Positions 3,169 through 64,000 of a stretch of DNA of 64,000 bases are shown piece by piece. A program made the translations under genes and the position numbers. The DNA is from Ascidia mentula (taxonomy: Eukaryota; Chordata; Ascidiacea; Phlebobranchia; Ascidiidae). Where the stretch lies: the NCBI GenBank assembly GCA_947561715.1, contig OX387202.1, positions 1 through 64,000 of the forward strand, in the 5' to 3' direction. Under the pieces are notes generated by a model. It had not been told where the DNA came from. It saw only the letters and a program-made list of their open reading frames with translations, and ran no database searches. Positions within the stretch are counted from its first letter, which is position 1. Every line of letters begins with the position of its first letter.

Positions 3169-4018
3169 CCGGCGTAACAAAGAGGCATTAGTAATCCGGT
3201 ACTTGCAAGAAATAAAACACATACATTAAACTTTATTTGTGAGGGGGAAGACAATGCACAAAAATGAAAATGAAAATTTACAAAAATGTTTCACATTTGC
3301 AGCAAATACGACAAAATTCGCACGGTCAAGGCAATATTTGATGTCGCAGTAAACGCACGTGCGTGGGCACCGACGTCGTTCGTCATTGTGACGCCATGCA
3401 TAGCAACAAGACAGTTGAGAGAAGGATGTACAAAAATCTACAAACGAAAACAATGACATTATGTTTTTGAAGAACTATCAAAATGTACATGGAAAATCAT
3501 ATTTGTGTTTTACCTATTGTGATCATTTCTCAGTGCTTTGCTGGTTGTTTGTTCAAACCTTCCAACCAGAATAGTCTCAGTTGGTTGGTTGTATGTAGTT
3601 GTCTCAGACATTGTGATTGTTGTGTTTTGTGCAGGACATGGGTCAGACATACTACCATAGGGATATGTGTCACATTGACCACATGTGGTCGGATAGGAGT
3701 TCCCAGATGCTATCACTGCTGTCAAATCAGCTCCTGCATATTCAACAGATTTTCAAGGATTGGTTTAGGATATACGGAACCAGCTAAAGTAAACCAAATG
3801 ATAAAAATACGATTGCTAATATTACTAGTAAGGGCTTCGCAGTGGGGCGACCCAAGTTTGAGTCACTAATGCGTTGCCTGAATATGATTGTAGGGACCCT
3901 CTACGTAAATTGCTGCCTTGACTTTGGCCAAGCTCGATTGCTATCCGGATTTAGTTGTTGCTATTATGAGGGGAATAAAAATACTTTCAATGCAACCAAA
4001 CTTTGTTGAACCCAACTT
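3169..4018. other. Subtelomeric spacer, no gene recognised
   Basis: About 850 bases separate the telomere from the stop codon of the first gene. Short open frames here have no recognisable family. Positions 3830-3880 contain a GCAGTGGGGCGA segment that recurs at about 35635-35648 beside a tRNA-derived SINE, so part of it is probably SINE remnant. I see no large subtelomeric satellite. Confidence 0.5.
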
Positions 4019-4023
4019 TTATT
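4018..4023 (-). terminator. Poly(A) signal overlapping the MCO-A stop codon
   Basis: AATAAA on the minus strand overlaps the predicted TAA stop (4019-4021). No other AATAAA was seen within the next 60 bases, so cleavage would leave a very short 3' UTR. Inferred from sequence only. Confidence 0.4.
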
Positions 4024-7000
4024 TTATATTATCACCTTGTGGTACAATTTCTGTTGTCAACATCATTCCAATATCTTCATGGTTAAGAAAATGGCAATGA
4101 ACCACAACCGTACCAAGGAACTTGTCGGCAAGAAACCTTACCTGATGTAAATACAAAATATTTATTTGTGACCACTAGGTTCCGTTCGTGCACTAACTTA
4201 CAGTAATATTTGACAGGGGTGGTACCCAAACTACGTCACGGAATTCCCCTGCTTCTGCGTAACCAAGTGTTCCGCTCCCGCCTGCCACCCAGCGTTCGTA
4301 ATGACCGGACCATTGATTTTCCGGGAATGGAATAACGTCATCAGCTACACGGGATTTTAGTAATACGTTTATTTGTATTTCGGCGTCAAACTCACGATTA
4401 AAGTTGTGATGTTGGTGAAAACAAGTCTCTTTGTTCCTTCCAAATAATTTCCAATCCAATGTATCGAAATCCACGTTTCCTATTGGTCCTTTGTACGGCT
4501 GGAAATTTATGATCTGTAAACATCAGAACTTTCACAAACCAAACTGTTCACACGAATTCAACACCGCGATGACGTCATAAATACCATCGAACGAGATAGA
4601 ACAAGAATAGTGATCTTACTTGGAAATGGTTGACGTGTATGTGTATCGGGTGACCAATATCAGGAGAAGTGTTGACAATTTGCCATTCCTGTATACTATC
4701 AACCTCCATTTTGTATCTAAACAAATATTGGTTGCGAACGAACGTTAATGTAACCATATGATATTGATCGCATAAGTTTGTTGGCAATTTTAACACGTGT
4801 ACTTTTGTAACAATTAACCCAACACTTCATTCGATTATGCTTTTGGTGGGAATCGAACCACCAACCTTCGTACATGAGACAAATTACCTGTAGTGTTCTT
4901 CGCATGTAAAACGATCTCGATTTAAACCGAAAGAAGGACTCAGTTCCAAAACCCATCTCCCGCCAATTTCCTCATCGGTAACGTTTTGAAAATCTCCAAT
5001 AAAACTTGGTCGTCTTGGTAGTCTGGTATCAATCGTTGTGAAGTTTTTCATACCACCGACGTTGATAGTAAGAAGCGTTCCGCTCCAACGCACAGCCGGT
5101 CCCAACGACGCTTCATCGTCTGGATCCGCGTTCGAGCGTAACTAAAACACGAACACTTCTCATTTCATCAGTGGTTTTCTATCATCTGTTGCTTACCAGA
5201 TATATTCCAGGTTGACTGCACATTACCAACCAATCAGAACGTTGTGATGACATTAGAAAAGTTTTATTCAATCTCTGCTTCCTAGCTTCGTTTAAATAAA
5301 CACCGTCTATAGAAATCTCATACACCTCACAGGCAGGCTGTCCGCTAGAGGCGTCAACGAGTTCAACCTCAAGGGTAGGTCCCCCACCAGCGTTCGCCAT
5401 TCTGTAATAAACAAAATTTACTTCGTAGGGATTTGAACCCTTGACCTTCGGGCTACCCCAGCTTACCTAAATCTTTTAACTTGTCCAGTTGATATGTTTA
5501 AAACAGGTTCAATTTGTCCGTTTGTTGTGAAATAATCGACGCCATTGTTTTCATTTTCAATCCATTGTCTAAACGTCCCACCGTCGGAAACGTTGAAACG
5601 ATTTAAACTGTTGACAAAGGTATGAAGTAGAATACGTGAGTGTTTGTAAACCACGCTTACTCGTCGACGAGATCCCCAATTTCATCCTGCACTGACGAGA
5701 ACTGATATCTTGTTACAATATTTGAATAAAGCAAGGTTGGCTGGAAAAGAAGTTGGACGTCATCCTGGCAATTAAATGGACACGATACTGACTTCAGTTG
5801 TTCGCTTAACTCTGTTTCATCGTCTTCAACTATTATGAAACCGGCCATTCCACTGTGGACCTACCGAATATTGTACTTTTTATAAACGGGTTACTTACTT
5901 TTCATGTTAACATCTACATTAAACAGAGGAAAATGTATTTAAATAAACTTATTTCATTTGTGAGGTAAATTGTAATCATCTCACTTTCGTGATGTATCAA
6001 TAAACAATTCTGTTTCGCACGTAGGCACAGGGGGGTTACCTGCAAACCCTTTTTCGCGTTATGTTAGAATAAATAATTTAATGCATTGTATCTGAATAGC
6101 GCGCACTAATTTTATTGATTTTGTTTTTTCCAAATTAATATTATAACCCACTTTATCGATTTGATATATAATTCCATACTTTTAGTGGTTTCCACGTTAC
6201 TCGTTATCATGAACTTAATCGAGAATGTATTTTCTATTCCGGATTAAATTATGAAACGATTCAAGGCGGTCACGTGAGTGACAACATTGCCGGTCTGTGT
6301 GGATTTTTTTACTCCTGCCCAACGAATATCACTTTAATATTCAATGGATTTCTTCTTGTGTATAATTTGCATTGTTAAAATTTCAAGTTGTTTTCAACTA
6401 GATGACCTACAATGCAAAATGGTTGAGGACCAACGAGGTTCCCTGAAATGACATCATCAGAAGTTTCAACGTATTTTGTTTTCCTTCCTTTGTATTACGC
6501 AACTTACTGGATGCTGGGATATCGGAGGTTTAACACACATGAATATTTAAGATTATTTCACTCGAGGCGAATCCACAAAACCGTTGGGTGGCAGCAGACA
6601 GCACATGTGTGATGACGCCATCCAGCGGACTACGTAGGAAAGATGAAAACAGACTCGTAAATAATGTCGGAATAATTTAGATATGGGTCAAAACAATTTC
6701 TCAATAAAGTTGGTATTCAATACAATGATAAATAGAATGAAAAATTCTTCTCAAATTTCTTCACTAGGATTTTAATCGCATCTGATTTTGTGGCATTTTA
6801 ACATCCTGGTTACTTACTTGAAACAAGGTTGCTCCATGTAAATGGGGGTGGTACCAGTAAGTTCCGGATGGCTGGTCACGCTCGATGGTATATTCATAAG
6901 TAAATTCTTGTTGGGGATAAACGTGTACGAATACATTGTCCCCGGGGACCTGGGGAGAAGTTTTTTATTACTCGGCCCACAACAGTGTTAATAATTGTGA

Positions 7001-7655
7001 TGAAACAGAAGAGTTATATAAATTAAATATGACGTCACAAAAATATGTCACCTGACTCCCAACATGTAGTCCGTGGGTGTGAAGGTTTGTGCTGTTTGGA
7101 AACCTCATATTGTTGTGGCCAAAGTTAGGATCAGGTCGTGTGAGTTTGTTCATCTGAAAACATTGATTAGGGATATTCTCATATCAAGGAAGTAAAAAGA
7201 ATGGACTTGACGCCCGTTTGCATGGATGGATGCCGTAAACATTTCAATGACCTACCAGCCTGACTTTGACCTTGTCTCCTTTCCTAATGTTCCAAGTTGG
7301 GGCTGAGATGAATCCGTTGAACATTCTTCTTCTCAATCTCATCCAATCCACGACAAAATCACCAACATCAGAAATCAAATCTATTTCTAAAGATCCGTTA
7401 ACTGAACGAACTTGACGCGGTTCCACCAAATCGTTTCCGCCTAAATATACAAACTTTTATAACCTTTTCAGCACAAAAACTTACCAACTTCGTAACCAAC
7501 CAAACGTTACAACACAAACCTGTTAGTCGACACGGATGAGTGAAATTACATGATTTTTCTCTTTGTGTCGTCATTATGTCCACGAGTATTTGTGTTTGTC
7601 CATCTCCCCACAAGCAACCAATCACAAAGAGTAATAGCATCACGTGATTATACAT
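4019..7655 (-). CDS. Secreted multicopper oxidase, laccase-like (copy A)
   Basis: Multicopper oxidases couple one-electron oxidation of phenols, metals or similar substrates to reduction of O2 to water; the substrate here is unknown. Eleven exons: 7520-7655, 7256-7440, 7052-7153, 6818-6949, 5661-5860, 5467-5607, 5197-5401, 4888-5141, 4620-4716, 4202-4513, 4019-4141. They sum to 1887 nt (628 aa) with matching phases. The N terminus is a signal peptide (start MYNHVMLLLF; an in-frame ATG at 7691 would add 12 residues). All copper motifs are visible: HTHG (~132), HPHLHG (~175), HPIHIH (~474) and HCHFLNHEDIGM (~603), which holds the T1 cysteine and a methionine axial ligand. Length fits the three-cupredoxin laccase type. 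An AATAAA overlaps the stop codon. It is the first gene from the telomere and is transcribed toward it. Laccase versus ferroxidase activity cannot be decided from sequence. Confidence 0.9.
6497..6783. mobile_element. 287-bp insertion in intron 4 of copy A, absent from copy B
   Basis: The intron between the exons at 6818-6949 and 5661-5860 is almost identical to the corresponding intron of copy B. Copy A has 287 extra bases inserted after a TTGTATT that joins directly to GATTTTGTGG in copy B (near 15718). No coding potential, and no clear target duplication or inverted ends were seen, so the class is unknown. It could equally be a deletion in copy B. Confidence 0.6.
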
Positions 7656-10330
7656 GGCTTGTAATTTTGAGTTTTCACCTGAATAATCCATAAGAAATTG
7701 CCATCATTTTATGGCGTTCTTTGTCTCAAAATCATTTCACGAAGTGACGGAAAGTTGTGGAGAATATTACTGCAGTTCATTTGTCCTTATTTAGACTGAA
7801 GTTTGAGGGTTTATGCGCAAAATGGGTGAAAAAGGGTTGCAGATAACTATGTTATAGTTCAGTCAAAATCAGCACTTTCATTGACAAATTACCAACAGAG
7901 CATATTTAAATGGAAATACATGTCACACACAAATCAATGTAGTTAATGCAAAGCAACGTCTGACGTAATATTTATTTTATTTATTTTTCAATCTGCTTCG
8001 GTGATTACCCTTTGGTTGTGGGTCAGATAGAAATGATACAAAACCTTACAGTAGCTGTGTTTGCATCTGAATTGCCACATATAAACATATGAAGTTCAAC
8101 ACTGGGGGAATACCTTATTGTGACACAGCACCTTTTTATTTTCCTGCTTCTTCGTTTTAAAAATAAATTCCTGATACAAAAACAAGCAAAACAATTGCTC
8201 AACCCTTTATAGTATTTTCTACAATCTCGAAAACTAACGAGTTAAAATTTATGCGATGTTTTCGAAGGGGCGCTTTATATATACCCCTAACAAAGCTCGT
8301 ATTGTTTCTCAACAATGCCGTCTTTGCTTGAATAGAGGGGGCGGGGGTTTTCCACAGAAATTTCCAAACAAGTTCTTTGGAATTTTCCACAGACAAACAT
8401 TCAGGGGTAACTTTCTCACAAATGAGTATTGAAAATAATGTTTACTAAAACGGGAATTTAAAAGCAAAAGTTCTTAATTTCAGTGTTAAGCAATTAATAG
8501 AAACAAGAAAACGTGCCACAAAATGTAAAATAAAATCGTAATTAATCTGACAGTTTGGTGGAATGAACCGGACTTTGGGGGCAATAGTTGGCTCTAACCC
8601 CGCTTATATATTTACGGTCATTATGTTAAACCCTACAAATTTAAATGTCCATGAGTTAGACTTTTTCCGTTGGATAATTTTTGCCACAAAAGATATGGCC
8701 GAAGGTGAAGTTTAATCGGGATTTAAAAACCAAATTACTGAAGATTTCAACAAGGGAAAGGAAACTAGTGCTTGGTCTCCATAATGCCGTGTAAATATAT
8801 CGCGCCCTTATTGTGACGTCAGCTAACAGTAAGGTTGCCTCGCTCTGAAAACCACAGAGTTTCTAAAGCCCGCATAGTTTCGACAAAACCTGCATAGAAG
8901 GCCACGCGCGAATGAACAACCTCCACTGCTGTGGATTTAGGTTTCGGAGGCTAAATAAACCTTTTGATCAATGAGGTGGATTCGACTTACCTATGAAGTT
9001 ATTTTGTGACGTCACAATATCAACCCGACTCGTAAGGATGTAATATTTATTTATCAATTATACCTGAGTTTGTTGCAGAACAATAGGTTAACAAAGGAAG
9101 GCGTTTATCTTTCGAAAATCCACCACGCGGTAGTCGAAGCCCGATTGACTCCTGTGGGTTACAGCGTAAAACCCCAAAGTTTCACAAACCGTAATTTAAT
9201 CCCGACAGACGGCTTTTGGGGATTTCTAAAGAGATGCGTAAACCCCCCCAGTGCCCCCTGGATTCTTCACGCTTGCTTTCAAAGTGTGCTCAACATCTCA
9301 CAAACACATTTCTTTGCATTTTATACACGATAGTCCGGTGTTAAATGATTGTTAATCGATTTTAAATTCACATTTACTTGAAAACACGATGATCAGAATG
9401 AAGACAATGAACCTGGAACAAATATAAATCTTGTTGGTGTTTCACCGAAACAACCCAAAATATTTGTTTATAAAACTTACACAAATCTTGGATTCACTCT
9501 GATTGCGTCACTGGTGGTTACGTTAAGAACGCGTGGTGTGGCGACAAAAGGTGACCTCAGTTGCATTTTTGCATTGGGTAAGTTACATGGACTTGGTGAG
9601 TTTGACGGGAAGCTGTCGCATCTGTCACAAGTGCCTGGGTAGGAATCTCCTGGTAGTAGCGCCGCTATATTGCTCTCTGTGTAAAGGAAATATGGTCTCA
9701 GTGGTTTTCACTGTTTTTTATGCTTCCCCCCTTATTTGTGCCTCTAGTGTTTGCGCTGTCTTTGAATCGTTTTGAATGTGGGTGTGGCAGTAGCGAATAA
9801 ACATGTCTTAGAGCAGAAACAAATTCCTTTTGGCCATTTGTTATAGGCATTACACTAGTGATTTGTTTGGTGGGAACAGTGCGTCTATAGTTGCATCCAT
9901 TGGCTCTCTGTAAGGGTTCAAGTATTACACCTTGCGCTTGCGGCCCAAGTCGTTCTTTCAGTTGTAATATGACCTCACAGTCGTCAATTATTGTGACACA
10001 AACAACCGAATAATGTCATTGTTTGTGTGTCAGAGGAAGATGTTTACTTTCAATGTCAGGCCAATTTGTTGTAATTGAAAGTATGAGGGCAAAAGAAAGG
10101 TTTGGCCAAATTAAGTTTTTGAAGGCAGAGGATATTGTGAATAATTTGAAAGTGTCTGTTTCTTGTAAATGTGTTGTCAGACACTTGAAAAAACCAGCGC
10201 AGCTGTATTCTTTATTTCGTATTCCAGTCTTTCCCCAATAATTTACCCCTGCCACAAGTGTTGAGCCCTGCTGACGTAGATCATAAATTCCCACGCAAAT
10301 ATACAAACATGCGTTACTGAAGATGAAAGT
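7656..10330. other. Intergenic region between the two multicopper oxidases
   Basis: About 2.7 kb with no supported gene. A short + frame at 10023-10241 encodes a basic peptide with a faint helix-turn-helix look (VSCKCVVRHLKK) that could be transposase debris, but this is weak. The other small frames look random. The region just above 7655 should hold the promoter of copy A; I saw no convincing TATA box. Confidence 0.4.
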
Positions 10331-13300
10331 TTAACCTGAATTAGAAACTTTAACTGTCAACATCATTCCAATATCTTCATGGTTAAGTAGATGGCAATGA
10401 ACCACAACCGTACCAAGGAACTTGTCGGCAAGAAACCTTACCTGATGTAAATACAAAATATTAATTTGTGACCACTAGGTTCCGTTCGTGCAGTAACTTA
10501 CAGTAATATTTGACAGGGGTGGTACCCAAACTACGTCACGGAATTCCCCTGCTTCAGCGTAACCAAGTGTTCCGCTCCCGCCTGCCACCCAGCGTTCATC
10601 GTGACCGAGAAATTCAAGGGCATTTTCAGGAAAGGGGATTGTTGTGGAGTCTGGTGAAAAATAAATCATCAAAACTTAATCATTCACTGGCGACGTCGAC
10701 AAGACATGATTTTCTTGCTAATACAATCTAATACAATTTCACTTTTACAATTACAGAAAAACACTATAAAGTAAAATTGTTGTATAGCCACCGTCATATA
10801 ACTTGTGTTGGTAAAAACAAGTTTGGTTTGTTTGTGAATAAAGTTTCCAATCTCCGTCTCTCGCCGCTCCCACCGGTCCAGTGTATTCCTCAAAACGAAT
10901 TATCTTTGAAACAAAAATTATTTCTATGTTATTGCAGAGTGTGTATAAGCTGCAGACAGATGGCCACTGTCTGCAGCTAATACACAATTCATATCATTGG
11001 CTCCACTTTGCTTATTGCAGAGTGTTTGTCACAAGCAAATCAGGCGACATAATATTTCATTGTTTCTTCATGATTAATTGAAATTACCTGAAAATGATTC
11101 ACATGGATATGAACTGGATGGCCCTCAGTCGGATGAGAGTTAAGAAGTTGCCATTCTTGCAGACTCCCTTCTTTCATTGTGTATCTGTAAAATAAACACT
11201 GTGTGGTAGAGTTATTAGGAGGGCTTTATTACGTAAACACTTTGTAGTAGATTGATTAGGAGGGCTTTATTACGTAAACACTTTGTAGTAGATTGATTAG
11301 GAGGGCTTTATTACGTAAACACTTTGTAGTAGATTGATTAGGTGGGCTTTATTACGTAAACACTTTGTGGTAGAGCTATTAGGAGGGCTTTATTACGTAA
11401 ACACTTTGTAGTAGATTGATTAGGAGGGCTTTATTACGTAAACACTTTGTAGTAGATTGATTAGGAGGGCTTTATTACGTAAACACTTTGTAGTAGATTG
11501 ATTAGGTGGGCTTTATTACGTAAACACTTTATGGTAGAGTTATTAGAAGGGCTTTATTACGTAAACACTTTGTAGTAGATTGATTAGGACGGCTTTATTA
11601 CGTAAACACTTTGTAGTAGATAGATTAGGAGGGCTTTATTACGTAAACACTTTGTAGTAGATTGATTAGGTGGGCTTTATTACGTAAACACTTTGTGGTA
11701 GAGCTATTAGGAGGGCTTTATTACGTAAACACTTTGTAGTAGATTGATTAGGAGGGCTTTATTACGTAAACACTTTGTAGTAGATTGATTAGGAGGGCTT
11801 TATTACGTAAACACTTTGTAGTAGATTGATTAGGTGGGCTTTATTACGTAAACACTTTATGGTAGAGTTATTAGAAGGGCTTTATTACGTAAACACTTTG
11901 TAGTAGATTGATTAGGACGGCTTTATTACGTAAACACTTTGTAGTAGATAGATTAGGAGGGCTTTATTACGTAAACACTTTGTAGTACATTGATTAGGTG
12001 GGCTTTATTACGTAAACACTTTGTGGTAGAGTTATTAGGAGGGCTTTATTACGTAAACACTTTGTAGTAGATTGATTAGGAGGGCTTTATTACGTAAACA
12101 CTTTGTAGTAGATTGATTAGGTGGGCTTTATTACGTAAACACTTTGTGGTAGAGTTATTAGGAGGGCTTTATTACGTAAACACTTTGTAGTAGATTGATT
12201 AGGAGGGCTTTATTACGTAAACACTTTGTAGTAGATTGATTAGGAGGGCTTTATTACGTAAACACTTTGTAGTAGATTGATTAGGAGGGCTTTATTACGT
12301 AAACACTTTATGGTAGAGTTATTAGAAGGGCTTTATTACGTAAACACTTTGTAGTAGATTGATTAGGACGGCTTTATTACGTAAACACTTTGTAGTAGAT
12401 AGATTAGGAGGGCTTTATTACGTAAACACTTTGTAGTACATTGATTAGGTGGGCTTTATTACGTAAACACTTTGTGGTAGAGTTATTAGGAGGGCTTTAT
12501 TACGTAAACACTTTGTAGTAGATTGATTAGGAGGGCTTTATTACGTAAACACTTTGTAGTAGATTGATTAGGTGGGCTTTATTACGTAAACACTTTATGG
12601 TAGAGTTATTAGAAGGGCTTTATTACGTAAACACTTTGTAGTAGATTGATTAGGAGGGCTTTATTACGTAAACACTTTGTAGTAGATTGATTAGGTGGGC
12701 TTTATTACGTAAACACTTTGTGGTAGAGTTATTAGGAGGGCTTTATTACGTAAACACTTTGTAGTAGATTGATTAGGAGGGCTTTATTACGTAAACACTT
12801 TGTAGTAGATTGATTAGGTGGACTTTATTACGTAAACACTTTATGGTAGAGTTATTAGAAGGGCTTTATTACGTAAACACTTTGTAGTAGATTGATTAGG
12901 AGGGCTTTATTACGTAAACACTTTGTAGTAGATTGATTAGGTGGGCTTTATTACGTAAACACTTTGTGGTAAAGTTGTTAGAAAGGCTTTATTACGTAAA
13001 CACTTTGTGGTAGAGTTATTGGGACGGCTTTATTACGTAAACACTTTGTGGTAGAGTTGTTAGGTTGGCATTATTGCGTAAACAGTTTGTGGTAGAGTTG
13101 TTAGGAGGGCTTTATTACGTAAACACTTTGTGGTAGAGTTGTTAGGAGGGCTTTATTACGTAAACACTTTGTGGTAGAGTTGTTAGGAGGGCTTTATTAC
13201 GTAAACACTTTGTGGTAAAGTTGTTAGGAGGGCTTTATTACGTTAACACTTTGTGGTAGAGTTGTTGGGAGGGCTTTATTACGTAAACACTTTGTGGTAG

Positions 13301-16300
13301 AGTTGTTAGGTTGGCTTTATTACGTAAACACTTTGTGGTAGAGTTATTAGGTTGGCTTTATTACGTAAACACTTTGTGGTAAAGTTGTTAGGTTGGCTTT
13401 ATTACGTAAACACTTTGTGGTAAAGTTGTTAGGAGGGCTTTATAACGTAAACACTTTGTGGTAAAGTTGTTAGGTTGGCTTTATTACGTAAACACTTTGA
13501 GATAAAGTTGTTAGGAGGGCTTTATAACGTAAACACTTTGTGGTAAAGTTGTTAGGTTGGCATTATTGCGTAAACACTTTGTGGTAGAGTTGTTAGGTTG
13601 GCATTATTGCGTAAACACTTTGTGGTAGAGTTGTTAGGAGGGCTTTATAACGTAAAACTTTGTGGTAAAGTTGTTAGGTTGGCTTCATTATGTAAACACT
13701 TTGTGGTAGTGTAATTAGGTTGGCTTTATTACGTGAACACTTTGTGGATGAGTTATTAAGTGAGCTTTATTACGTAAACACTTTGTGGTAAAGTTGTTAG
13801 GTTGGCATTATTGCGTAATCACTTTGTGGTTGAGTTGTTAGGAGGGCTTTATTACGTAAACACTTTGTGGTAAAATTGTTAGGAGGGCTTTATAACGTAA
13901 ACACTTTGTGGTACAGTTATTAGGTTGGCTTTATTACGTAAACACTTGGTGGTCAAGTTGTTTGGTTGGCTTTATTATGTAAACACTTTGTGGTAGTGTA
14001 ATTAGGTGGGCTTTATCACGTAAACACTTTGTGGTAAAGTTATTAGGTGGGCTTAATTACGTAAACACTTTGTGGTAAAGTTGTTAATCGAATATTTGTG
14101 ACATCTGAACGAAACGTACTTGTAATTTTCCTCATACGAATAATGCTCTCTGTTTAGACCGAATTCTGGAACAATCTCAACGGAAAACCTTCCCCCCACA
14201 TTTGAATCGGTAACGCCATGCAAATCGCTGACGTAACCCGGTTGCTGGGGTAACGCGGTGTCGATTGCTGAAAAGCGTTCGTTTCCAATAACGCGAAGGG
14301 AAAGAAGCGTTCCGCTCCAACGCACACCGGTGCCGATTGATATGACGTCATCTTTAAGCGGGTTGGAACGGAGCTGGCAAACGCGAAATGAGTTAAGATA
14401 ATGTTAAGGAATCACATATTATTTACCAGATATATTCCAGGTTGACTGCACATTACTATCCAGTCACATCTACCAGCGGGAACAAGAAAAGTTTTGTTCA
14501 ATCTCTGCTTCCTAGCTTCGTTTAAATAAACACCGTCTATAGAAATCTCATACACCTCACAGGCAGGCTGTCCGCTAGAGGCGTCAACGAGTTCAACCTC
14601 AAGGGTAGGTCCCCCACCAGCGTTCGCCATTCTGTAATAAACAAAATTTACTTCGTAGGGATTTGAACCCTTGACCTTCGGACTACCCCAGCTTACCTAA
14701 ATCTTTTAACTTGTCCAGTTGATATGTTTAAAACAGGTTCAATTTGTCCGTTTGTTGTGAAATAATCGACGCCATTGTTTTCATTTTCAATCCATTGTCT
14801 AAACGTCCCACCGTCGGAAACGTTGAAACGATTTAAACTGTTGACAAAGGTATGAAGTAGAATACGTGAGTGTTTGTAAACCACGCTTACTCGTCGACGA
14901 GATCCCCAATTTCATCCTGCACTGACGAGAACTGATATCTTGTTACAATATTTGAATAAAGCAAGGTTGGCTGGAAAAGAAGTTGGACGTCATCCTGGCA
15001 ATTAAATGGACACGATACTGACTTCAGTTGTTCGCTTAACTCTGTTTCATCGTCTTCAACTATTATGAAACCGGCCATTCCACTGTGGACCTACCGAATA
15101 TTGTACTTTTTATAAACGGGTTACTTACTTTCATGTTAACATCTACATCTACATTATATTTAAATAAACTTATTTCATTTGTGAGGTAAATTGTAATCAT
15201 CTCACTTTCGTGATGTATCAATAAACAATTCTGTTTCGCACGTAGGCACAGGGGGGTTACCTGCAAACCCTTTTTCGCGTTATGTTAGAATAAATAATTT
15301 AATGCATTGTATCTGAATAGCGCGCACTAATTTTATTGATTTTGTTTTTTCCAAGTTAATATTATAACCCACTTTATCGATTTGATATATAATTCCATAC
15401 TTTTAGTGGTTTCCACGTTACTCGTTATCATGAACTTAATCGAGAATGTATTTTCTATTCCGGATTAAATTATGAAACGAATCAAGGCGATCACGTGAGT
15501 GACAACATTGCCGGTCAGTGTGGATTTTTTTACTCCTGCCCAACGAATATCACTTTAATATTCAATGGATTTCTTCTTGTGTATAATTTGCATTGTTAAA
15601 ATTTCAAGTTGTTTTCAACTAGATGACCTACAATGCAAAATGGTTGAGGACCAACGAGGTTCCCTGAAATGACATCATCAGAAGTTTCAACGTATTTGGT
15701 TTTCCTTCCTTTGTATTGATTTTGTGGCATTTTAACATCCTGGTTACTTACTTGAAACAAGGTTGCTCCATGTAAATGTGGGTGGTACCAGTAAGTTCCG
15801 GATGGCTGGTCACGCTCGATGGTATATTCGTAAGTAAATTCTTGTTGGGGATAAACGTGTACGAATACATTGTCCCCGGGGACCTGGGAAGAAGTTACCC
15901 ATGTTGATAAACAAATTTGCAACTGGACGTCCCCGTATCGATTCCTTTCTTGTTTATTCAAAGGAAATGACAAAGTAATAAAATTTAAAGATCTGATAAA
16001 GGAATTCGTCATCGCCGCTAACTATATATTGATATGACACAAGTTACTGGTCTATAGTGTACCCATGTATTTTACCTCACTTCCGATGTGTAATCCGTGA
16101 GTGTGGAGGTTTGTGCTGTTTGGAAACCTTTGGTTGTTGTGACCAAAGTTATGGTCGGGATACTGCAGCCTATTTTCCTGACAAGAAATACACGGAATTT
16201 TCGTTAATTTTTGTTAAAACTCTTGCCCCGAATCTCATTAATGGACGAAGAAATTGACACCAAAATGAACTTAGAGAAATTGAAATACATTTCAATGACC

Positions 16301-16664
16301 TACCAGCCTGACTTTGACCTTGTCTCCTTTCCTAATGTTCCAAGTTGGGGCTGAGATGAATCCGTTGAACATTCTTCTTCTCAATCTCATCCAATCCACG
16401 ACAAAATCACCAACATCAGAAATCAAATCTATTTCTAAAGATCCGTTAACTGAACGAACTTGACGCGGTTCCACCAAATCGTTTCCACCTAAATATACAT
16501 AATTTCAATACCAACAGGTTTGTGAGTTACACCTGTGGGAAGCAACCTCTTAGCCGACACGGATGAGTAAAATTGCAAATATTTTGTTTTGTTGTCATTA
16601 TGTCCACAAGCACTTGGCTTTGCCCTTCTGCAAACAAGCATCCAATCACTACTAGCACAAGCAT
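10331..16664 (-). CDS. Secreted multicopper oxidase, laccase-like (copy B)
   Basis: Tandem paralogue of copy A, same strand. Twelve exons: 16547-16664, 16304-16488, 16076-16162, 15752-15883, 14891-15090, 14697-14837, 14427-14631, 14120-14373, 11088-11184, 10792-10903, 10502-10650, 10331-10441; total 1791 nt (596 aa), phases consistent. An in-frame stop precedes the ATG, which begins a signal peptide (MLVLVVIGCL). Copper motifs are intact: HTHGLHIG, HPHLHG, HPVHIH and HCHLLNHEDIGM. Differences from copy A: exon 3 is five codons shorter, and exon 10 of A corresponds to two exons here with about 17 codons missing (the GTGGCT donor at 10791 is uncertain). The C terminus is SNSG rather than GDNIK. 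Intron 8 is expanded to 2.9 kb by a minisatellite. Exons 2, 5, 6 and most of 7, with their introns, are nearly identical to A, suggesting gene conversion. Confidence 0.85.
10948..10978. repeat. Hairpin in MCO-B intron, CTGCAGACAG family
   Basis: Perfect 12-bp arms (AGCTGCAGACAG and its complement) around a 7-base loop. The segment is flanked by a direct repeat TTATTGCAGAGTGT at about 10930 and 11012, as if inserted with a target duplication. The CTGCAGACAG core recurs at several other sites in this window. Confidence 0.6.
11190..14088. repeat. 41-bp minisatellite filling intron 8 of MCO-B
   Basis: About 70 tandem copies of a 41-bp unit; the most stable core is TTATTACGTAAACACTTTG. The array runs from within about 10 bases of the exon-9 acceptor (11184) to about 30 bases past the exon-8 donor (14119). 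Units nearest exon 9 are homogeneous and form blocks: an ATGGTAGAGTTATTAGAAG variant recurs at about 11530, 11858, 12310, 12597 and 12841. Units toward exon 8 are more diverged (about 12950-14088), implying recent growth at the exon-9 side. Copy A has only about 170 bp in this intron. Confidence 0.95.
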
Positions 16665-17361
16665 CACGTTACAACACTTCTAAGAAATCTGCAAAAGTTA
16701 GGCAAGACATATTTATGATCATCTGCAAAATTTTATCCCAATTTGTCCTTTGTAAAAATATTTCTGGTTTCCAATTAGTTATCGCACGTTTTGTTCAAGT
16801 TAAAATGCGCAGACCGCTAGCTTTTCTATCGATCATTGACATCGAGAAACTATTGCTTGTTTATTTTTCACTTTAAAAAACCAGTTATTTTCCTAAATAC
16901 CTCCAAAGATCGCTTGACAACCTTCTGCATTTATAGGGTTTGTAAAAACGTAATCTAAATGTTCCCCGCAGTTAATCTAGCTATGCGCATACACATAGAT
17001 GAGGGGCTACGGAGTAAATATATGCAACGGATTTGAAGTGTGTTCATGCCGCCGAATACATGCGTACCTCGTGTGTTTACACGTGTAGCGACCTGTTGAA
17101 CCGACCAACAGCAAATAAGGGACAGAAACACGTGGGTTTAAAGCTGCAAATTTGTGGGGGTTTATATCAACAAGAAATCACGATACTACTGGAATCTTTA
17201 TTTCTAATAAACGCCAGAACTGCAAGTCATTTGACGTTATCTATGACAGTAATCTCAATTATTCGGATGACTTCGTCACATGTCACATGTCGTTTAAAGC
17301 GACGTATCCGGATTAACAAGTTCGCAAACATACAATGAAGCTTTGAAATACGCAAGGAGCC

Positions 17362-25799: not shown

Positions 25800-27724
25800 G
25801 TTACAGCACTTTATAGTCCTTTATTGTTTTAGAGCCAGGGCGGTCGTTGTTTAAAGGTCTGTAATTATTACTGTACCACGTTTAGTTTGACCTTTCTACG
25901 TGGGAACCCGGTCACAAATATGAACAGTTCCAATATTACAATTGTCATATTAATATTAACTGTGTTCGCTACAAGCCTTATTTATTTTAAACAAAGCTTG
26001 CGTCCATTCCCAACACGACTGTTTTTAACCATAACAAACTAATCGCCATCATCTTAATTTGAGCAAAGCTAATAATCAGAGAACCGCATCGACTTATGGT
26101 CGCATCATAATCTTTGCCTTAATTTTTCTGCCGCTTCAAACCGTTGTTACACCTTACTATTTTGGTAATTTTTGCGCATGGCTATTTGACATTAAGCTGT
26201 AATTTTGGCCGTTTTTCATTATTTACTTGATCTATTTGATGGTAATTATTATGGAAAACGTTGTAATTAATTATTGGTAAATGTTTTGCCGTACTGTGAA
26301 ACGTTCTATTAATGGCCTCAATATTATTAATGCGCTATCTGACTCAAGAGTAACTCCAATACTAGTAAAGCGACAAAAACCAAACCTTCATGTAATAATA
26401 ACAGTACGACTCCAAATAAGGCGCGACAAAAAATGCGAAATTCTCTTGTTTATTTTCTTATCTCACAGCATACAATATATATATTGTCAAGAGATCTACA
26501 TGCGTCTCACCAATTTACGTAACTAAAAATCAGCGATGTTTTATTGGTACAGTACAGTTCGGTGATTGTAAAATAAAAGGGAAGTGAAAAGACGAGAAAA
26601 CGATACACAATACATGTCACGGGGTTTGGCGATACACTGTCAAACAACTCTAAAACAAAAGGTATAACTTTGCGAATGTGATTAAAACCAACGTTAGCGA
26701 ATCAATCAACAAACAATATATTTGTCTTACTTAGCCTTCCTAGCGCAACCCAAACTACATTCGTCTCTTTCCGGTTATTTACCCAGCTCTGTTATACGCT
26801 GTCCTCTGCATCTTTATAGTCTTATGGACTAGAGGACGTAAAATAACATTTTATAGATGAGCTGCAGACAGAGGGCCCTGTTTCGACCTAAATAGGTCTG
26901 ATAACTTCTATATATTCAAGCAACTTTCAAACGAAACAACTTTGCGGAAATCAAAAAATGACAACGAAACAACGCATCTTGCTTCCACGACGCTACAGAA
27001 ATGACCCTGAAATATTCTCCGGTCCGTTGACTTAGTTAAGGCCAGCAATAGCAAAGCGAAGCAATAAAACGAAACAGCGATATATGAACTATTCGTTTTT
27101 GTTCGCACAGACGAAACGCCAGAGAATAAAACAAACACCAGTAGCGAACCCAAAGGTTTAAGGAAGCGACAAAAAAGTACAGCTAAATCAGAGTGGGATA
27201 TAAATCAATACAAAGCATCAATCACTGGTCAAACGGCCAAACATAGGAAACAATGAGTCAAGAGTTGTTACGGGCGAAATTGCGGAACACGGGCGAAAGT
27301 ACTTTTACGATTTAAGCATTCGTACAGGCGAAACGTCAGAAAAATAAAATCTTTTTAAACAAATGGTGGATATTTGTTGTTCTCCACCAGACGAACGAAC
27401 AGTTTAGTATTTACCATAATAGCTGGTGGTTATAAACCTATTACAGTTTTAACCATATACGCTTTTAAAATGGTCGATTAGATTATTAATCCCAATACGT
27501 CATGAATTTCATGGTTTCGGCTTTGCATCATCAATGGGTCTCACGTGACGAAGGTGCAGGTACAAATTGCCCGAAAATGCATTGGTTTAGATAGGGGTTA
27601 TTTACTAAAACGCGTGTAGCGCAGCCTTAATGTTTTTGTGGGAAAAATGTTACATTTAGGCATAACAACTGTCTAGGAAACTTTCATTTCAGGTTAAAAT
27701 CTTTCAGTCTTCTTTAATTAGACA

Positions 27725-44225: not shown

Positions 44226-47200
44226 TTATTGCTCCTTGTTGTCAGGAACAACGTTGATAAACCGTTGCATGAAGCTGGTCACGTGATCAATACCCGGCAC
44301 TTTCTTGTTAAAGTAAACGAGTGGAATATAGAAGAAGATTCCAGAAATTGTAAAGCAAGAAGCATACAAAACAAACGGGTCTGGTTGCAATACAAGAGGG
44401 GCCACAACAAGATAGGCTGACATTATGACCACAGCTCCAGGGATTACAAGCGGGACCTGTAGAAATAAAACCTTGTTGGTTTGATTGTTCATCATTGCTA
44501 CTCAAGCAAACAACCTATCAAGCTTTACAAGAATAAGCAACTAATGCTGAAGGAAAGAAAACGGACTAAACAGACCTTATTTAGAAAAACGTCGCACTTG
44601 TGGCTCGGAACTGAAGGAGAGGCCGGTTACCAGTTCCCTTTCAAGCATTTTTATTGGCATTGGTCAGTAGTGCGTAACGGAACTATACTTTCTCCTCACA
44701 CGATTACGTTATTTAGGTAGTGACGTCACGCCATATTTGTCTCGAATGTTTTGAATTTATGCGGAGTTACTTTCTCCACAATAGGCTAACACCCAAATAA
44801 GCCCGTTTGCACAATGAAAGGAACAACTACAGTAAAGATATTAAACTTACCTTATAAGGTCGCTCCAAATGCTTTTGTGTGTAACGAGTAAATATTAAAC
44901 CAAGTGCGCACATTCCAATGTAAAGCCATTCCATGAATTGCGTGCCCTGAGAAAAACAATTGAATTAAATTTTAAAAGTACATTTAACAAACATCAAATA
45001 TACAACTAAGGCTTAATTGAAGTTTTAGTCGACGAGGAAAGTAACCACTAAACTGGATCTAATTGACAACAAGAAACAAGGGTGGTGATGATTCTAACCT
45101 GCACTAAAGCGTCAAAATTAGATGGGAACACGAATATGACGTCAAGAATCGCAAGAAGCCCGATGCCGGCTGCTGGAGTTTTGTAATCAACTTGAACCAT
45201 TGAAAGGATCTGCGTGAATACAATGAGTTATTAGCACCAAATTAAAGATTGATAATTGCATAGTCGACATGGACACTGTATCTGTAACCATCGGTTTTCC
45301 AAGCAAACTTTGTACCTGGGGAAGAAAACCTCTTCTTCCTGAAATGTACATCATTCTACCGTTTGCCAACAAACCAGAGTTAATCGTTCCTGCTACAGAT
45401 AAAGCGACACCCAGCGGAGCAATCCAAGACCATGACGTCATTGTTCGGTCAGCGACAGAAGTTGCAACAGAGCGGGATTGAAGAAGTTCACTTGGGGTCA
45501 GCACTGCCACGTGACAAACAGAGACTATAGAGTTAAAACTGCCACGTGACAAACAGAAACTACGGTTACCACTGCCACGTGACAAACAGAGACTATAGAG
45601 TTAAAACTGCCACGTGACAAACAGAGACTATAGAGTTAAAACTGCCACGCGACAAACAGAAACTACGGTTACCACTGCCACGTGACAAACAGAGACTATA
45701 TAGTTAAAACTGCCACGTGACAAACAGAGACTAGAGTTAAAACTGCCACGTGACAAACAGAGACTAGAGTTAAAACTGCCACGTGACAAACAGAGACTAT
45801 AGAGTTAAAACTGCCACGTGACAAACAGAGACTATAGAGTTAAAACTGCCACGTGACAAACAGAGATTACGGTTACCACTGCCACGTGACAAACAGAGAC
45901 TAGAGTTAAAACTGCCACGTGACAAACAGAGACTATATAGTTAAAACTGCCACGTGACAAACAGAGACTAGAGTTAAAACTGCCACGTGACAAACAGAGA
46001 CTAGAGTTAAAACTGCCACGTGACAAACAGAGACTACGGTTACCACTGCCACGTGACAAACAGAGACTAGAGTTAAAACTGCCACGTGACAAACAGAAAC
46101 TACGGTTACCACTGCCACGTGACAAACAGAGACTAGAGTTAAAACTGCCACGTGACAAACAGAGACTATAGAGTTAAAACTGTCACGTGACAAACAGAGA
46201 CTAGAGTTAAAACTGCCACGTGACAAACAGAAACTACGGTTACCACTGCCACGTGACAAACAGAGACTATAGAGTTAAAACTGCCACGTGACAAACAGAG
46301 ACTAGAGTTAAAACTGCCACGTGACAAACAGAGACTATATAGTTAAAACTGCCACGTGACAAACAGAGACTAGAGTTAAAACTGCCACGTGACAAACAGA
46401 GACTAGAGATAACACTGCCACGTGACAAACAGACACTAGAGTTAAAACTGCCACGTGACAAACAGAGACTAGAGTTAAAACTGCCACGTGAAAAAAAGAG
46501 ACTTTATAGTTAAAACTGCCACGTGACAAACAGAGACTAGAGTTAAAACTGCCACGTGACAAACAGAGACTAGAGATAACACTGCCACGTGACAAACAGA
46601 CACTAGAGTTAACACACTTCTTACTTACCGGAGAAATAAGCACAGTTGACGAACAAGTACACGATTATCACGACACAAACGCCAACAGTTATTGAACGCG
46701 GAAGATTTTTTTTTGGTTTATTTATTTCCTCAGCGATCACGCTTAGATTGGCGAATCCTGCGTACGGCCATAACCCCTGCAGAAACCACACAGGTTTGTT
46801 GTTGTAAGTGAATGTACTCACTACACTTTCTTACAAACCGCGTGTGGTTGTAACACATTCATACCTGGTACAATGCTAGACTGATTTCTTTTGCCCCAAC
46901 TTCATCAACCGACCCGTAAACAGGATTGGATAAATCAAAAGCATTGTTAAAGTTCGATTCAGCTACAGAACTGTCGACCCCGATGTAGATGTACGCAGAA
47001 ACTGAAACCACAGCAAGATCATACACCACTTTACCATGTTGCAAAGAAATGCAGCATAAGGTTTTTGCCCACCTGATATTATGACGAGGACAATAACTTT
47101 AGCTGCCGTGAAGAAAACAATTAACCTCACTGCCGTCCGCACACTCAAACAATTAATAAGAGCCAGAGTTAAGATGACAGCGATAGCAACACACTTGATC

Positions 47201-48631
47201 AATACATCAGGAGCCTGACATCCGTTATAGAATGGTGACGTCACGTATTCTCCCATAGCAATGCCCAGAGCTGCTCCCTCTAAAAACGCATTTGTTTGGA
47301 AGGGAATTCTTTCAGCTGAATTAAACCTAGCATTATATCAATTAATTCATTCTTGAAAGTAACAGCGATTCAACTAGTGCATTCCAAAATGTTAGGGGTT
47401 CCACAACAAAAAGGTTTCATGACATAAAGGGTTTAAGGAACTACCTCGAGTTCTAGGCAAGCTTAAAAACCTTTTATTCGTGATTGACTTGAGATTTAAA
47501 ATAATGTTTGAATAAAACAATTGTTGATACTTCCGGGTAGTACAACCAGACAGTAACTCCACGCATGTAGGAATGCAATCCCTTGTCCGTAGCATTCCAG
47601 AATGTATGTGTTGATGCCTCCAGATGCTGGGTATGTGAGACCGAGTTCACTCAGGGTGAGAGCAGAAAGTAGGCATAGCAACCCACAGACTACCCACACA
47701 ACCAGACTTAAACCCACACTCCCTCCACAATACCTCAATATTCCAGTTGGAGAAAGAAATATCCCTGATCCAATCATGCTTCCTAAATAAACATAGTCAA
47801 TGCTTTAGTAATTGTAACGTCACAATACTATGGACTATTACACCACATCCTACTTTTATTGCGTAATTTGGCTGATAAAAAATAAGATCGCGTTGAGAAG
47901 AGGGAAATACCCATGTTGTGTTAAAGAAGCAGACAGTTTTGACCTATAAGGTCAAGGTCAATGCAAACCGTAGCACTGAACAAGCTTTGAAGAAGCAGGC
48001 GCACAAATAATTTCCACTTCGTGGTACTTTTCAGTCAACTTCGATATAGGTACTCAACCACATCAGAGGCGGACCGCTTTGAGTGCAACAACTTACTTGT
48101 ATTTAAATTATGGTTTGTCAAAAACCACCAAACTAACCATCCAGTAAGTTGTTAATTTAACGTGTTTCTTTCAAATGCCCTGAGCATTGGTGGCTAATAT
48201 ATAATTGGAATAAAATCCACCTAATGGACATAATAACAAAAAAATAGTGTGTTTCGTCTGGATTGCAATAAATCGCTTGAAACTTTGAATTACCCTGAAA
48301 TTACTTCGACGTTTTAAGATATGCAAAAAACACAAACTGTCAACCGCGGGGTTTGAGGTTTTCTTTCAACATCGTTTCCAAATCTAATTCAAGTGAGAAT
48401 TTACATTCGAATAAATTTAAGCAGCAATTTCTATTTGAAGCGTTTCCGAGGTTCTTACATTAAAATGTTTTCGAAAGTAAACGTGGCAACAAAATGTCAT
48501 GTCCGCTACAGTACGTTTCTTTAAATTGCAAACTTAACAAACTTCTCACCAATTACGATGCTCATCCCACGCACGAAACCGATTCTTTGCTTCAAGATAA
48601 CATCATGTGGCAGTTTGGTACCCGTGTCCAT
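44226..48631 (-). CDS. SLC7-family amino-acid transporter (light-chain type)
   Basis: LAT-type APC-superfamily exchanger in the plasma membrane, normally disulfide-linked to an SLC3 heavy chain. Nine exons: 48550-48631, 47531-47782, 47073-47279, 46865-47001, 46629-46776, 45316-45503, 45099-45209, 44851-44946, 44226-44456; 1452 nt (483 aa), phases consistent. TM1 carries the substrate motif GSMIGSGIFLSPTG. The family signatures SALTLSELG, YPASGGINTYILE and YAGFANLSVIAEE and the pre-C-terminal ERPYKVPLVIP are present, with about 12 hydrophobic segments. YNGCQAPD in the TM3-4 loop contains the cysteine that binds the heavy chain. The start is MDTGTKLPHD; an upstream in-frame ATG at 48727 exists. 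Intron 5 (45504-46628) is nearly all minisatellite. Whether it is b0,+AT, y+LAT or LAT type cannot be settled here. Confidence 0.9.
44498..44678 (+). repeat. 181-bp direct repeat, copy 2
   Basis: Second copy of the 42537-42717 repeat with a handful of substitutions. It lies in the last intron of the SLC7 transporter gene (44457-44850). Confidence 0.85.
45504..46610. repeat. 33-unit minisatellite of reiterated 3' splice sites in SLC7 intron 5
   Basis: 33 tandem units of 33 or 35 bp. On the gene (minus) strand each unit contains TTTAACTC (branch-point-like), the pyrimidine-rich GTCTCTGTTTGTC and CACGTGGCAG. The acceptor used for exon 6 (CACGTGGCAG|TGCTGACC, exon starting at 45503) is the AG of the last unit, and the array ends 12-20 bases from the exon-5 donor. 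32 of 33 units keep the palindromic E-box CACGTG (one has CACGCG). Open frames of about 100 codons across it are by-products of the repeat, not genes. Confidence 0.95.
47930..48060. repeat. CTGCAGACAG-family fragment in SLC7 intron 1
   Basis: Contains GACCTATAAGGTC, AAGCAGACAG and AATTTCCACTTCGTGGTAC, the same order of blocks as in the palindromic element at 40868-41200. Diverged. Confidence 0.55.
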
Positions 48632-49481: not shown

Positions 49482-52400
49482 ATGAAGACGATTGTAGCAT
49501 TTTGTTTGTTCGCAATTTCGACTGTAGCGGGTAAGTGTGATTGTTGTTTCTAAAATACAAAGTGTTGAAGCAATCTGGTAAATAAATTATTTTGCTGATT
49601 GAATTTCAGCCCTTCATTGTTGGCAATGCGAAAATGCTTGGGGGAATGAAGATTGCTTGGAAAAAGGCCATTTACAAAAATGTCAACCAAACGAGGTTTT
49701 AAACGTTTAACAAATATGTTGCAAGTTTTATCTCTCGGTAAAATAACGAGAGGACATAAGTGAGATGTTTTTTTTAATTTTCATGACAAATTTAATTGGA
49801 ATATTCACTTCCAGCAATCTTGCCTAACTGAAATACGACACGGGAATTGGAACAGCAGAATTTTGATAAAGAAAGGTTGCAAGCAACCCCTTGCGTGTTA
49901 TAACAATTACATTCAGGTGATGACAGTATTTGTTACATTCTTACCGATTACTTACGTCTATTGTTCAATGCAGAACCCGCGTGGAGCTTGGGTCCCTTCT
50001 CAATGCAATGAGAAGGACCCTTCATCTGTCTGTAGATGCTGTTGTGACACCGATTCATGCAACATCGACCTAACCTCATGCACAGATAAAAGTAATACGT
50101 CATTTTACTTTATTTCGTCACTGTGATATGATTGTAAATGTGTGGTTTAGGTCCCAGGTGCTTTCCTTCCCATGTAAATCCAGCTGACGGGGATGTCACC
50201 TGTTCTAATGGCAACGAGGTGGGCAGTGTTTGTTCATTCAAATGTAACGTCGGTTACGATTTATTCGGGGAAACCACCTCCCTTTGTCGTAAGTTTTTGA
50301 ATTTATCAGACTTAAAGTGCATATGACGCGGCCATGGCAACTTTGCGTAAAACTAAAGGTACATCTACAACAAACATATATCCAAAGTTTTACGGTTCTA
50401 CGTCAACTAAAAAATGTAGAAAACTGCACGAAAAGTAACGGCGACCAAAAATCGTGAACCTTCATTTCTAGAACTATATTGCGAAAAATACATTAGTGGT
50501 TGATTGTGGCGAATCAAATTAATCATTTATGACGCGAACTCGTAGGCAACTACTGTCGGACAAAAAGTGGTTCTATGACAGGATAACAGTGTTGTGTTGC
50601 ATAATCAGCTAATTTGGTGGGTTTTTCTCGGCGGTCTTTGCCAGCCTCAAAATTCAATTCCTTTGCAGTGAGTGGACAAAACGACAATGCTAAATTGGCG
50701 GTTTGTCTCTGTCGTGTTTTCAAAAGTTCATGTATCACGTTAGCGATCATAAATGGTGCAACAACAAGAACACCCTCTCCCATAAGTAACTGTTTTTTTT
50801 ATCACATAACTAAATAAGACATAATAGGTCTAAACAGCGGCCATCTGTCTTCAGCTTAAATTAACATCAAAATCCGTTTGTTGCACTTGTTCACTTGTTG
50901 TCCCCTGTTTAATGCAAAACTATACCAAACCAGTTTTACAATGTTTTCCATTCGTACGCATAAGACCGTAGCGCCTTCAATGACGTCACGCAACAATAAT
51001 CTCGCTTTCCCACGATTTCGTTCGCAGCGGTAAAAGTGCGACTTTGATCAGCTGTATCTCAGAAACCAGTCGCCGTATCAAGCTAATTTTTTCGCAAAAA
51101 ATGTTTTAAAGTTATGAACATCTCTTAGTTTAATTATTGACATGTTTGATTTTTCCGTGTCACGTGCACTTTAACAGCAAAATCTTTAAAAACGTTCTGA
51201 CGTTACAGAAGAAAGTAAACAATGGAACAATGCCGCCCCCTTGTGCCGACCATCAGTTTGTCGCCCACTTCACGTAGCGTCACCTAACGGTCGACTTTCA
51301 TGTTCGGATGAGAACAGAGTAAATAGCAGATGCACGTACGTTGTATCCTAGTATTGTTTACAGACTTTCGTAACTTTTACCTCTCTCTTACCCACAGACT
51401 TCCGTAACTTTTACCTCTGTCTCACCCACAGACTTCCGTAACTTTTACCTCTCTCTCACCCACAGACTTCCGTAACTTTTACCTCTCTCTCACCCACACA
51501 CTTCCGTAACTTTTACCTCTCTCTCACCCACAGACTTCCTTAACTTTTAACTCACAGATTTATTTTTATTTACAGATTTTTTTGCGATTTAGGATTTTCT
51601 ATCAAGGGAATCTCAGTCTCCCGTTGCCAGGACAACGGAAGGTGGTCTTCCCCCCCACCAACTTGTGAAGGTAAAGAAATAATTTAACAACTCACTGTAA
51701 CTGTAGTTTTCCCGCCCATTTTTTATACATCACATGATTTTACAAGCGGTGTTAGCGTTATCCCCTTTTTCGTGTTGGCACGTTTTTTGGCGTTAGTTGT
51801 GTGCTGTACCATTACCTTGAGGAAGCCTTGTTGAATAACAGGCGAAACGTCGGTGAATAAAGCTACGTTTTGGCTTTATGGCCGACAAAGACATTGAAAC
51901 ATTGATTTTTACAGCTTTTGTAAGAAACATTAAAGTCGATTGTTTCACAACGAAGTGTTCGTTTGACTCAAACTTACCCTAAAACAGTTATTAGTGTTGA
52001 ACGCCAGTTTACTGCTTTTTGTTTTGTGAAAAAGCCCAGATTTTAATTCTAACAATAAACAAACCTGGTCTAACCAAGAACGGTTGAAACATTTGTTCTT
52101 TAGTGTAAACATTTACTTGGTTCGGAAGCTCGATAAAGCCATATAATCATGCAAGAACGAGATGTTTTAGGAAAGGGCTTTGAGGCACTTATGCGATTAT
52201 ATCTTGAAACGCCAAACTCTAGTTTGAGAAAGATATATTCCCCTTACACAAATTTCATTTTTACAGAAATCCGATGCATTCCTCCATTAGTTGCGCCTGA
52301 GAATGGTGACGTCAGCTGCTCACATGACAACCTGGTTGGTAGTGTTTGTAGCTTTGCATGTAAAGCTGGCTTCGCTCTTATTGGTCAGTCTAAGGCCACG

Positions 52401-63416: not shown

Positions 63417-63852
63417 AATAAAGTAATTCTACGTTTACATTTTCTTGGAAACAGCATAGTTTGATGGCAGAAAAGTTGTGTTTCAACAAACAACGGACCA
63501 AATAATGCCATAACGCATGCAAATATTTATTCTGCCTCGCTTAAACATATGCCAGAAAGCTTCAGCCAATGATTTTTTTTCACTCTGTATTTCCGAGCCT
63601 AACTGGTCGAACATTATGTTTAGAGCGGATTGGTTGTGGCCATTCGTGTTGAAATTATCAGTTAATAGTAAACTATTTTGTTAAGTTCAGCCATAAATTA
63701 GAAAATATAATTCAAGGTTGCACATATTCCAAACTGCATTGTGCAGTTTCCCGTTAAATTTCGAACTCGTAAAAGCACATTTCCAGTTCCTAACACCTGG
63801 TCACAAGTTTTTGTCAAACTTGATTTACAAAAAAGAATAATCTTTGCATGTT

Positions 63853-64000
63853 GATGTGGGACAGGTTTCAGGTAAATGTGGGACGGGTTTCATGTGAATA
63901 TGAAACCGATTTCATGTGAACATGGGACGGGTTTCATGTGAATGTGAGACATGTGTCATGTGAATATGAAACCGACTTTAATGTGAATATGGGACGGGCT
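63853..64000. repeat. 22-bp tandem repeat, cut by the window end
   Basis: About six to seven units of about 22 bp alternating between GGGACGGGTTTCATGTGAAT and GAAACCGATTTCATGTGAA forms. The array continues past the end of the window, so its full length is unknown. Confidence 0.8.

Follow-up and report, generated by a model that had tools for sequence, protein, structure and literature searches.

New introns are reportedly gained from tandem arrays that carry splice signals, in work ascribed to Rogers and to Zhuo 2007. In amphioxus, minisatellite-like tandem duplications of the intron–exon boundary, called mirages, have many units with splice signals, and regular splicing is reported to be undisturbed, as outlined in PMC3087553 and PMC3902484. 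The mirage genes named in these reports are Adh3, the globins BflGb6 and BflGb9, troponin C and PGBD5, with units of 150–160 bp in BflGb6 (one haplotype with 6 copies and another with 3), 157 bp in BflGb9, 10–72 bp in Adh3, and 60 and 108 bp in PGBD5 (PMC3087553, PMC3902484). In human IFI6 (6-16), a minisatellite contains multiple splice donor sites, and their alternative use is stated (PMC4526556). Here we describe an ascidian amino-acid transporter gene of the SLC7 family with an intron filled by a minisatellite of 33 acceptor-like modules (array 1). With a probability of roughly 0.6, we regard it as a mirage-type minisatellite that arose from the boundary of an old SLC7 intron, is tolerated, and has its last unit used in splicing.

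The gene lies in a 64,000-nucleotide stretch of the Ascidia mentula genome, which was analysed as a whole and is referred to below as the window. Its model, an SLC7/b(0,+)AT-like gene on the reverse strand (44226–47782) without the N-terminal part, has eight exons: 47782–47531, 47315–47073, 47001–46865, 46776–46629, 45503–45316, 45209–45099, 44946–44851 and 44456–44226, the last ending in a stop codon. They are separated by introns of 215, 71, 88, 1125, 106, 152 and 394 nt. The 467-residue product has b(0,+)-type amino acid transporter 1 as its best match (6yup, E = 5.9e-89) and also matches Pfam AA_permease_2. The array-filled intron of 1125 nt (45504–46628, reverse strand) has the donor GTAAGTAAG at 46628 and the acceptor GGCAG at 45504. 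The exon upstream of it (46629–46776, reverse strand) reads ...VIIVYLFVNCAYFS and ends in TCCG. The downstream exon (45316–45503, reverse strand), which is the fifth of the eight modelled and is called exon 6 here as in the original prediction, starts with TGCTGACC, translated as (G)V-L-T-P-S. The junction ...NCAYFS/VLTPSELLQS aligns without a gap to ...NVSYFTVMTATELLQS of b(0,+)AT in sequences of solved structures. Thus, the intron borders originally predicted at 45504–46628 in an amino-acid transporter are exact by both the exon model and protein homology.

The minisatellite (TRF, 45503–46612, reverse strand; period 33, 33 copies, score 1721) makes up 98.6% of this intron, begins 16 nt from the donor and runs flush up to exon 6, so that the repeat ends at the intron–exon boundary. 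The donor had been expected near the far end of the array, and the measured distance bears this out; likewise, the proposed array of reiterated acceptor-like modules is there, with 33 in-register unit-end AGs counted. The modules have the general form TTTTAACTC...TCTCTGTTTGTCACGTGGCAG. Counted from the donor, a 47-nt first module is followed by 32 units, 21 of them 33 nt and 11 of them 35 nt long; CACGTGGCAG forms the module end in 31/33 and a one-base variant of it in 2/33, and TAAC is found within 31/33. At the donor end, two consecutive five-module blocks of 167 bp each (46281–46614, reverse strand) represent a multi-unit duplication: modules 1–5 and 6–10 are identical at 163/167 bases, which is direct evidence for multi-unit exchange as a growth mode of array 1. 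A dispersed repeat or transposon was ruled out as the source, since the 17 exact matches of a 24-mer from the unit in the 196-Mb genome all lie inside array 1.

The modules also share CACGTG, which we take to be an E-box of the USF/MITF/MYC/TFEB type, and the units could on this account be a putative intronic binding platform, that is, a regulatory array acting as DNA. The motif occurs in 32/33 modules, but a homogenised array retains any motif, and the consensus units of two further array-filled introns of the window (arrays 2 and 3, below) are without it. We consider a regulatory function of this kind highly improbable.

An intron at the same position was found in five distinct SLC7 paralogs when 22 partly overlapping loci were scanned with two motifs. 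The lengths are 60 nt (L014), 120 nt (L033), 123 nt (L023), 491 nt (L016) and 509 nt (L019). The introns of L023 and L033 start alike; the 120 nt of L033 are open in frame, and the L023 intron has a stop. As a separate observation, two SLC7 copies on C69 (L011 and L012, 539436–542402) have one open frame each (496 and 493 aa) across the intron position and are probably intronless retrocopies. Because the position is common to five paralogs, the SLC7 intron is old, and a newly gained intron was ruled out on the same ground. The notion of an ancestral intron of about 47 nt finds no support in this comparison, given paralog introns of 60–509 nt and a first-module branch-point A that would sit no more than about 20 nt away from the donor.

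An old intron and gap-free homology together make the AG of the last unit the expected acceptor. Among the 68 AGs of the intron, the frame is open only from the last one, at position 1125, and from another in the same last unit, at position 1104. The AG at 1104, 21 nt upstream of the last, would add VSVCHVA; it stays a candidate because AGs of such kind outscore the unit ends in an acceptor profile (below), but the family spacing and its closeness to TAAC make it an unlikely acceptor for exon 6. The original assignment of the functional acceptor to the AG of the last unit agrees with the gap-free continuation against b(0,+)AT. Judging from this homology-defined boundary, a functional mRNA most likely requires splicing to the acceptor of the last unit, and its use would be expected in vivo.

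The units seem to contain more than intron. Read in the phase of exon 6, the 8 nt after the unit AGs encode VLT in 24/32, VVT in 6/32 and VLS in 2/32 cases; by comparison, in-phase VLT follows 17/5507 other AGs of the window, and V[LV][TS] follows 46/5507. Exon 6 itself starts with VLT, as do four of the paralog exons, the fifth starting with VLS, and the exon start of L023 is identical to TTTTAACT of the unit. Between the start of exon 6 and the best-matching unit type, 6/9 bases are identical, a match equalled by 1.0% of the 9-mers in the window. The VLT match covers 8 nt only and was noticed before being tested, and a T-rich TAAC branch site just after an AG would itself tend towards a VLT reading. 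With these limits, the sequence suggests that the units copy the intron–exon boundary, probably with the initial 8 nt of exon 6 as well. The earlier proposal of repeated duplication of the 3′ part of the intron was therefore nearly right; what it lacked is the start of the exon, which the unit seems to include (in-phase VLT/VVT/VLS).

We suggest that about 25 nt of the intron end, probably together with the initial 8 nt of exon 6, were duplicated in tandem, and that the array could then have expanded through unequal exchange, by single units or several at a time, to fill the intron. The exon codons Val-Leu-Thr (TTTTAACT) of each copy would sit at the would-be branch-point position, and for this reason each unit would resemble a 3′ splice site. 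Alternatively, an ordinary intronic minisatellite with a repeat of 33–41 bp may have expanded in a short ascidian intron and taken in its 3′ end, in which case the acceptor-like content would be incidental and nothing would be exon-derived. The in-phase VLT, VVT or VLS in 32/32 units speaks against such an origin, and the remaining evidence comes from the other array-filled introns of the window.

The second of these introns (51336–51575, forward strand), 240 nt long and located in a sushi-domain gene (junction ...VNSRCT/FFCDLGF..., Pfam Sushi 2.5e-12), contains array 2 at 51360–51553 with a 34-bp unit, CGTAACTTTTACCTCTCTCTCACCCACAG, that occupies 81% of the intron. Its full units end in CCCACAG in 4/5 cases and in CCCACAC in one, with CGTAAC upstream in all five. 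Of its upstream AGs, 6/7 lead to a stop, the exception being a degenerate AG 18 nt before the true site that keeps the frame open; use of CCCACAG as an acceptor gives an immediate stop because the TAA of the branch point is read in frame. The sole genome match of array 2 is itself, which rules out a dispersed repeat or transposon. The third intron (11185–14119, reverse strand), of 2935 nt, belongs to a multicopper-oxidase gene (Cu-oxidase_2, 2.2e-6), and array 3 (11193–14086; 41-bp unit, 70.6 copies) fills 98.6% of it, ending 33 nt from the donor and 8 nt from the acceptor. In a neighbouring oxidase copy, the intron at the same position is 171 nt long and has no TRF row. The two neighbouring oxidase copies lie at about 3226–7703 and 9477–17137; when translated, 5463–5681 and 14693–14911 are identical and 5182–5466 and 14412–14696 nearly so, with the adjacent stretch (4884–5141 against 14053–14403) far more diverged, a pattern suggestive of patchy gene conversion close to the telomere.

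Telomere aside, the window has four minisatellites with at least 4 copies and a TRF score of at least 50, three of which fill introns. These three introns lie at a distance of 11–52 kb from the telomeric end of the contig (CCCTAA, 1–3167). Across 14 arbitrary 10-kb stretches with unannotated genes (L040–L053), one 15–80-bp repeat of at least 4 copies was found, a 20-bp satellite in L052; no such tandem repeat was detected in 28 partly overlapping paralog loci (L011–L038) or in two stretches near contig ends (L055 and L056), genes again being unannotated. Other repeats were observed in passing: a 22/44-bp minisatellite at 63847–64000 that continues to about 64231 (L039, 3847–4231), a 22-bp array at 6165–6294 of L039, and tandem repeats of about 273–275 bp with tRNA-like sequence, as judged by eye, at 4561–6802 of L041 (C72). 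A genome-wide search for a triple TTTTNCAG pattern gave 586 matches, compared with 9 for reversed controls; among the 100 matches listed, a single 24-bp array on C52 accounts for 45, a 138-bp satellite that is present in L050 too for about 26, and a dispersed 56-bp repeat for 8. Separately, TTTTNCAG was seen in each unit of tandem repeats on C52 at 26349–26447 (about 46 bp), 8018755–8020970 (about 24 bp) and 19348474–19348697 (about 27 bp), and on C67 at 8182152–8182249 (about 30 bp).

How common the splice-signal content of such repeats is was measured with a module defined as T[AG]A[CT], a pyrimidine content of at least 11/17 and YAG, using random 33- and 34-mers of the window, iterated in tandem, as a control. 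The module is present in the three unit consensus types of array 1 and in the consensus unit of array 2, always on the gene strand, the opposite strand having none, and it appeared in 3.9% of the random 33-mers and 4.5% of the 34-mers. When at least 12 of 17 pyrimidines are required, the units of array 1 drop out and only array 2 passes; on the gene strand of array 3, no module was found at any pyrimidine setting tried. Of the authentic acceptors of the window, 5/15 contain the module at 11 pyrimidines. An acceptor module in 2/3 arrays, compared with about 4–5% of random tandem units, again disfavours an ordinary minisatellite. Such an origin does gain from array 3, the 41-bp array and one of three, which lacks the module, and from the fact that three window introns are mostly array: when all but one unit are removed, about 48, 80 and 82 nt remain (arrays 1, 2 and 3), and short introns therefore seem to have been filled. 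In addition, exon-derived sequence is not clear by eye in the two other array introns, which counts against boundary duplication. On balance, we hold an ordinary minisatellite to be possible but somewhat unlikely.

In a small profile built from 15 acceptors of the window (positions −15 to +1), with ranks taken against 5514 window AGs, the unit-end AGs of array 1 fall at the 24th–47th percentile, and other AGs inside the same units outscore them (up to 4.85, compared with −2.8 at best for the unit ends). The full-unit AGs of array 2 reach the 57th–86th percentile and a leader AG 28 nt from its donor the 99.5th, as do the acceptors next to the exon in arrays 2 and 3, each left out of the profile in turn. 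The picture is thus mixed: array 1 units contain the elements of a 3′ splice site, yet their T-rich stretch adjoining the AG is poor. Calling them complete 3′ splice sites is generous, as they have TAAC, pyrimidines and YAG but rank with random AGs in the profile. The last acceptor of array 1, with GGCAG in a context as weak as in the other units, is no exception, and the profile therefore leaves its winning unexplained.

Splicing to any one of the 32 upstream unit acceptors would run into a premature stop, with open frames in 0/32, and inserted peptides are therefore not expected from them in complete mRNA; the suggestion that upstream units add in-frame peptides was rejected on this count. 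Since upstream acceptor use runs into a stop codon, it would at most cause mRNA loss, and leakage would only lower output. A more active role can be imagined, in line with the original suggestion that mRNA output may be tuned by copy number and unit type. The units would then form a splicing rheostat: they would compete as acceptors, a fraction of transcripts would be spliced to upstream units and enter nonsense-mediated decay, and copy number or unit type would set transporter output. The restriction of branch-point, pyrimidine and YAG modules to the gene strand and the stops behind every upstream unit would fit such a device, although a long stretch of retained repeat usually hits a stop anyway. 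Acceptor choice has been described by a rule of the first AG after the branch point (PMC1431707), and each GGCAG, 27–29 nt from its own TAAC, would be usable under the rule as reported there. Against this stand the unit acceptors themselves, which rank with random AGs in the local T-rich profile, and the amphioxus mirages, which are reported to be silent in splicing (PMC3087553, PMC3902484). A rheostat therefore appears unlikely. Under the boundary-duplication reading, the array would be tolerated because its units are mediocre acceptors by the T-rich style of this genome and only the last one adjoins a real exon; we infer that array 1 is neutral in this sense.

Surplus acceptors could also be used in trans. 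The single spliced leader of Ciona intestinalis is ATTCTATTTGAATAAG (PMC7986045), and the 195.8-Mb genome (79 contigs) contains 1091 + 1066 = 2157 exact copies of it, on which ground we take the genome to be that of an ascidian. Among the matches listed, a tandem with a spacing of about 720 bp was seen on C1 (15239666–15297871), along with many scattered copies. If the array trapped spliced leaders, 5′-truncated mRNAs would result; the exact copies, compared with 0 for the reversed control, and a leader followed by GT in L054 are what such a trap would need, but the good-looking donor 16 nt upstream of the array means that the acceptors are not unpaired. We regard this explanation as exceedingly improbable.

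Finally, RNA folding was considered as a reason for the choice of the last unit. The core of the unit, UGUCACGUGGCA, is self-complementary as RNA when G–U pairs are included, and neighbouring units are therefore predicted to zip into hairpins of 13 bp (−18.1 kcal/mol). Under local folding, each AG together with the two bases before it has an unpaired probability of at most 0.08, and the last AG ranks only about third of 33 (0.007–0.028). For the whole pre-mRNA, the predicted global ensemble places the G of the last AG first of 33 in openness (0.457), a value that was equalled by 0/6 and 0/36 substitute flanks from the window and by 2/24 shuffled exons. The A of the last AG is unexceptional, its real value being reached by 9/36 flanks and 4/24 shuffled exons. 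Among model arrays of 2–12 modules, 10/11 had their last G as the most open one (the exception having 9 modules), and no odd/even effect of module number was seen over this range. The fold z-score against shuffles is −16.6, a value that is misleading for a tandem repeat, as 8–9% of 600 random 33-mers in tandem match the folding of this unit. These predictions would allow a self-masking array, whose unit hairpins bury their own AGs, whose last G is the most open depending on the sequence of exon 6, whose copy number drifts without a change in the protein, and whose recycled exon codons serve as branch points. We consider this idea quite unlikely, and the predicted openness of the last G is a lead, no more.

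The locus is of interest as a natural test of acceptor choice: 33 near-identical modules lie behind one donor, and only the last leads to protein, with proximity, scanning from the branch point, exon definition and RNA structure as the models at stake. Why the last of 33 similar sites would win under the first-AG rule, as reported in PMC1431707, is the interesting point. If confirmed, the findings would extend boundary-duplicating minisatellites from amphioxus to tunicates, and array 1 would show exon codons turning into branch points. No tunicate or acceptor counterpart was recognised in the literature by titles and the starts of abstracts, which is not proof of absence in print.

Compared with described systems, array 1 shares splice signals in its repeat units with the tandem arrays said to create new introns, but those arrays make an intron, whereas the position of this one is common to five paralogs. 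As with the IFI6 minisatellite, its units act as, or resemble, splice sites; in IFI6 they are donors for which alternative use is stated (PMC4526556), whereas here they are predicted acceptors. With the amphioxus mirages, as outlined in their reports, it shares a minisatellite at the boundary, units with splice signals and a chordate gene (PMC3087553, PMC3902484). It is unlike them in being ascidian, in having 33 acceptor copies that fill the whole intron, and in a unit made up largely of intron sequence, of which only some 8 nt resemble exon; mirages are reported from cephalochordates, and this difference in lineage reflects where they have been reported rather than how they work. By analogy with the mirages, array 1 looks like an extreme case of a known type of boundary repeat rather than a new mechanism.
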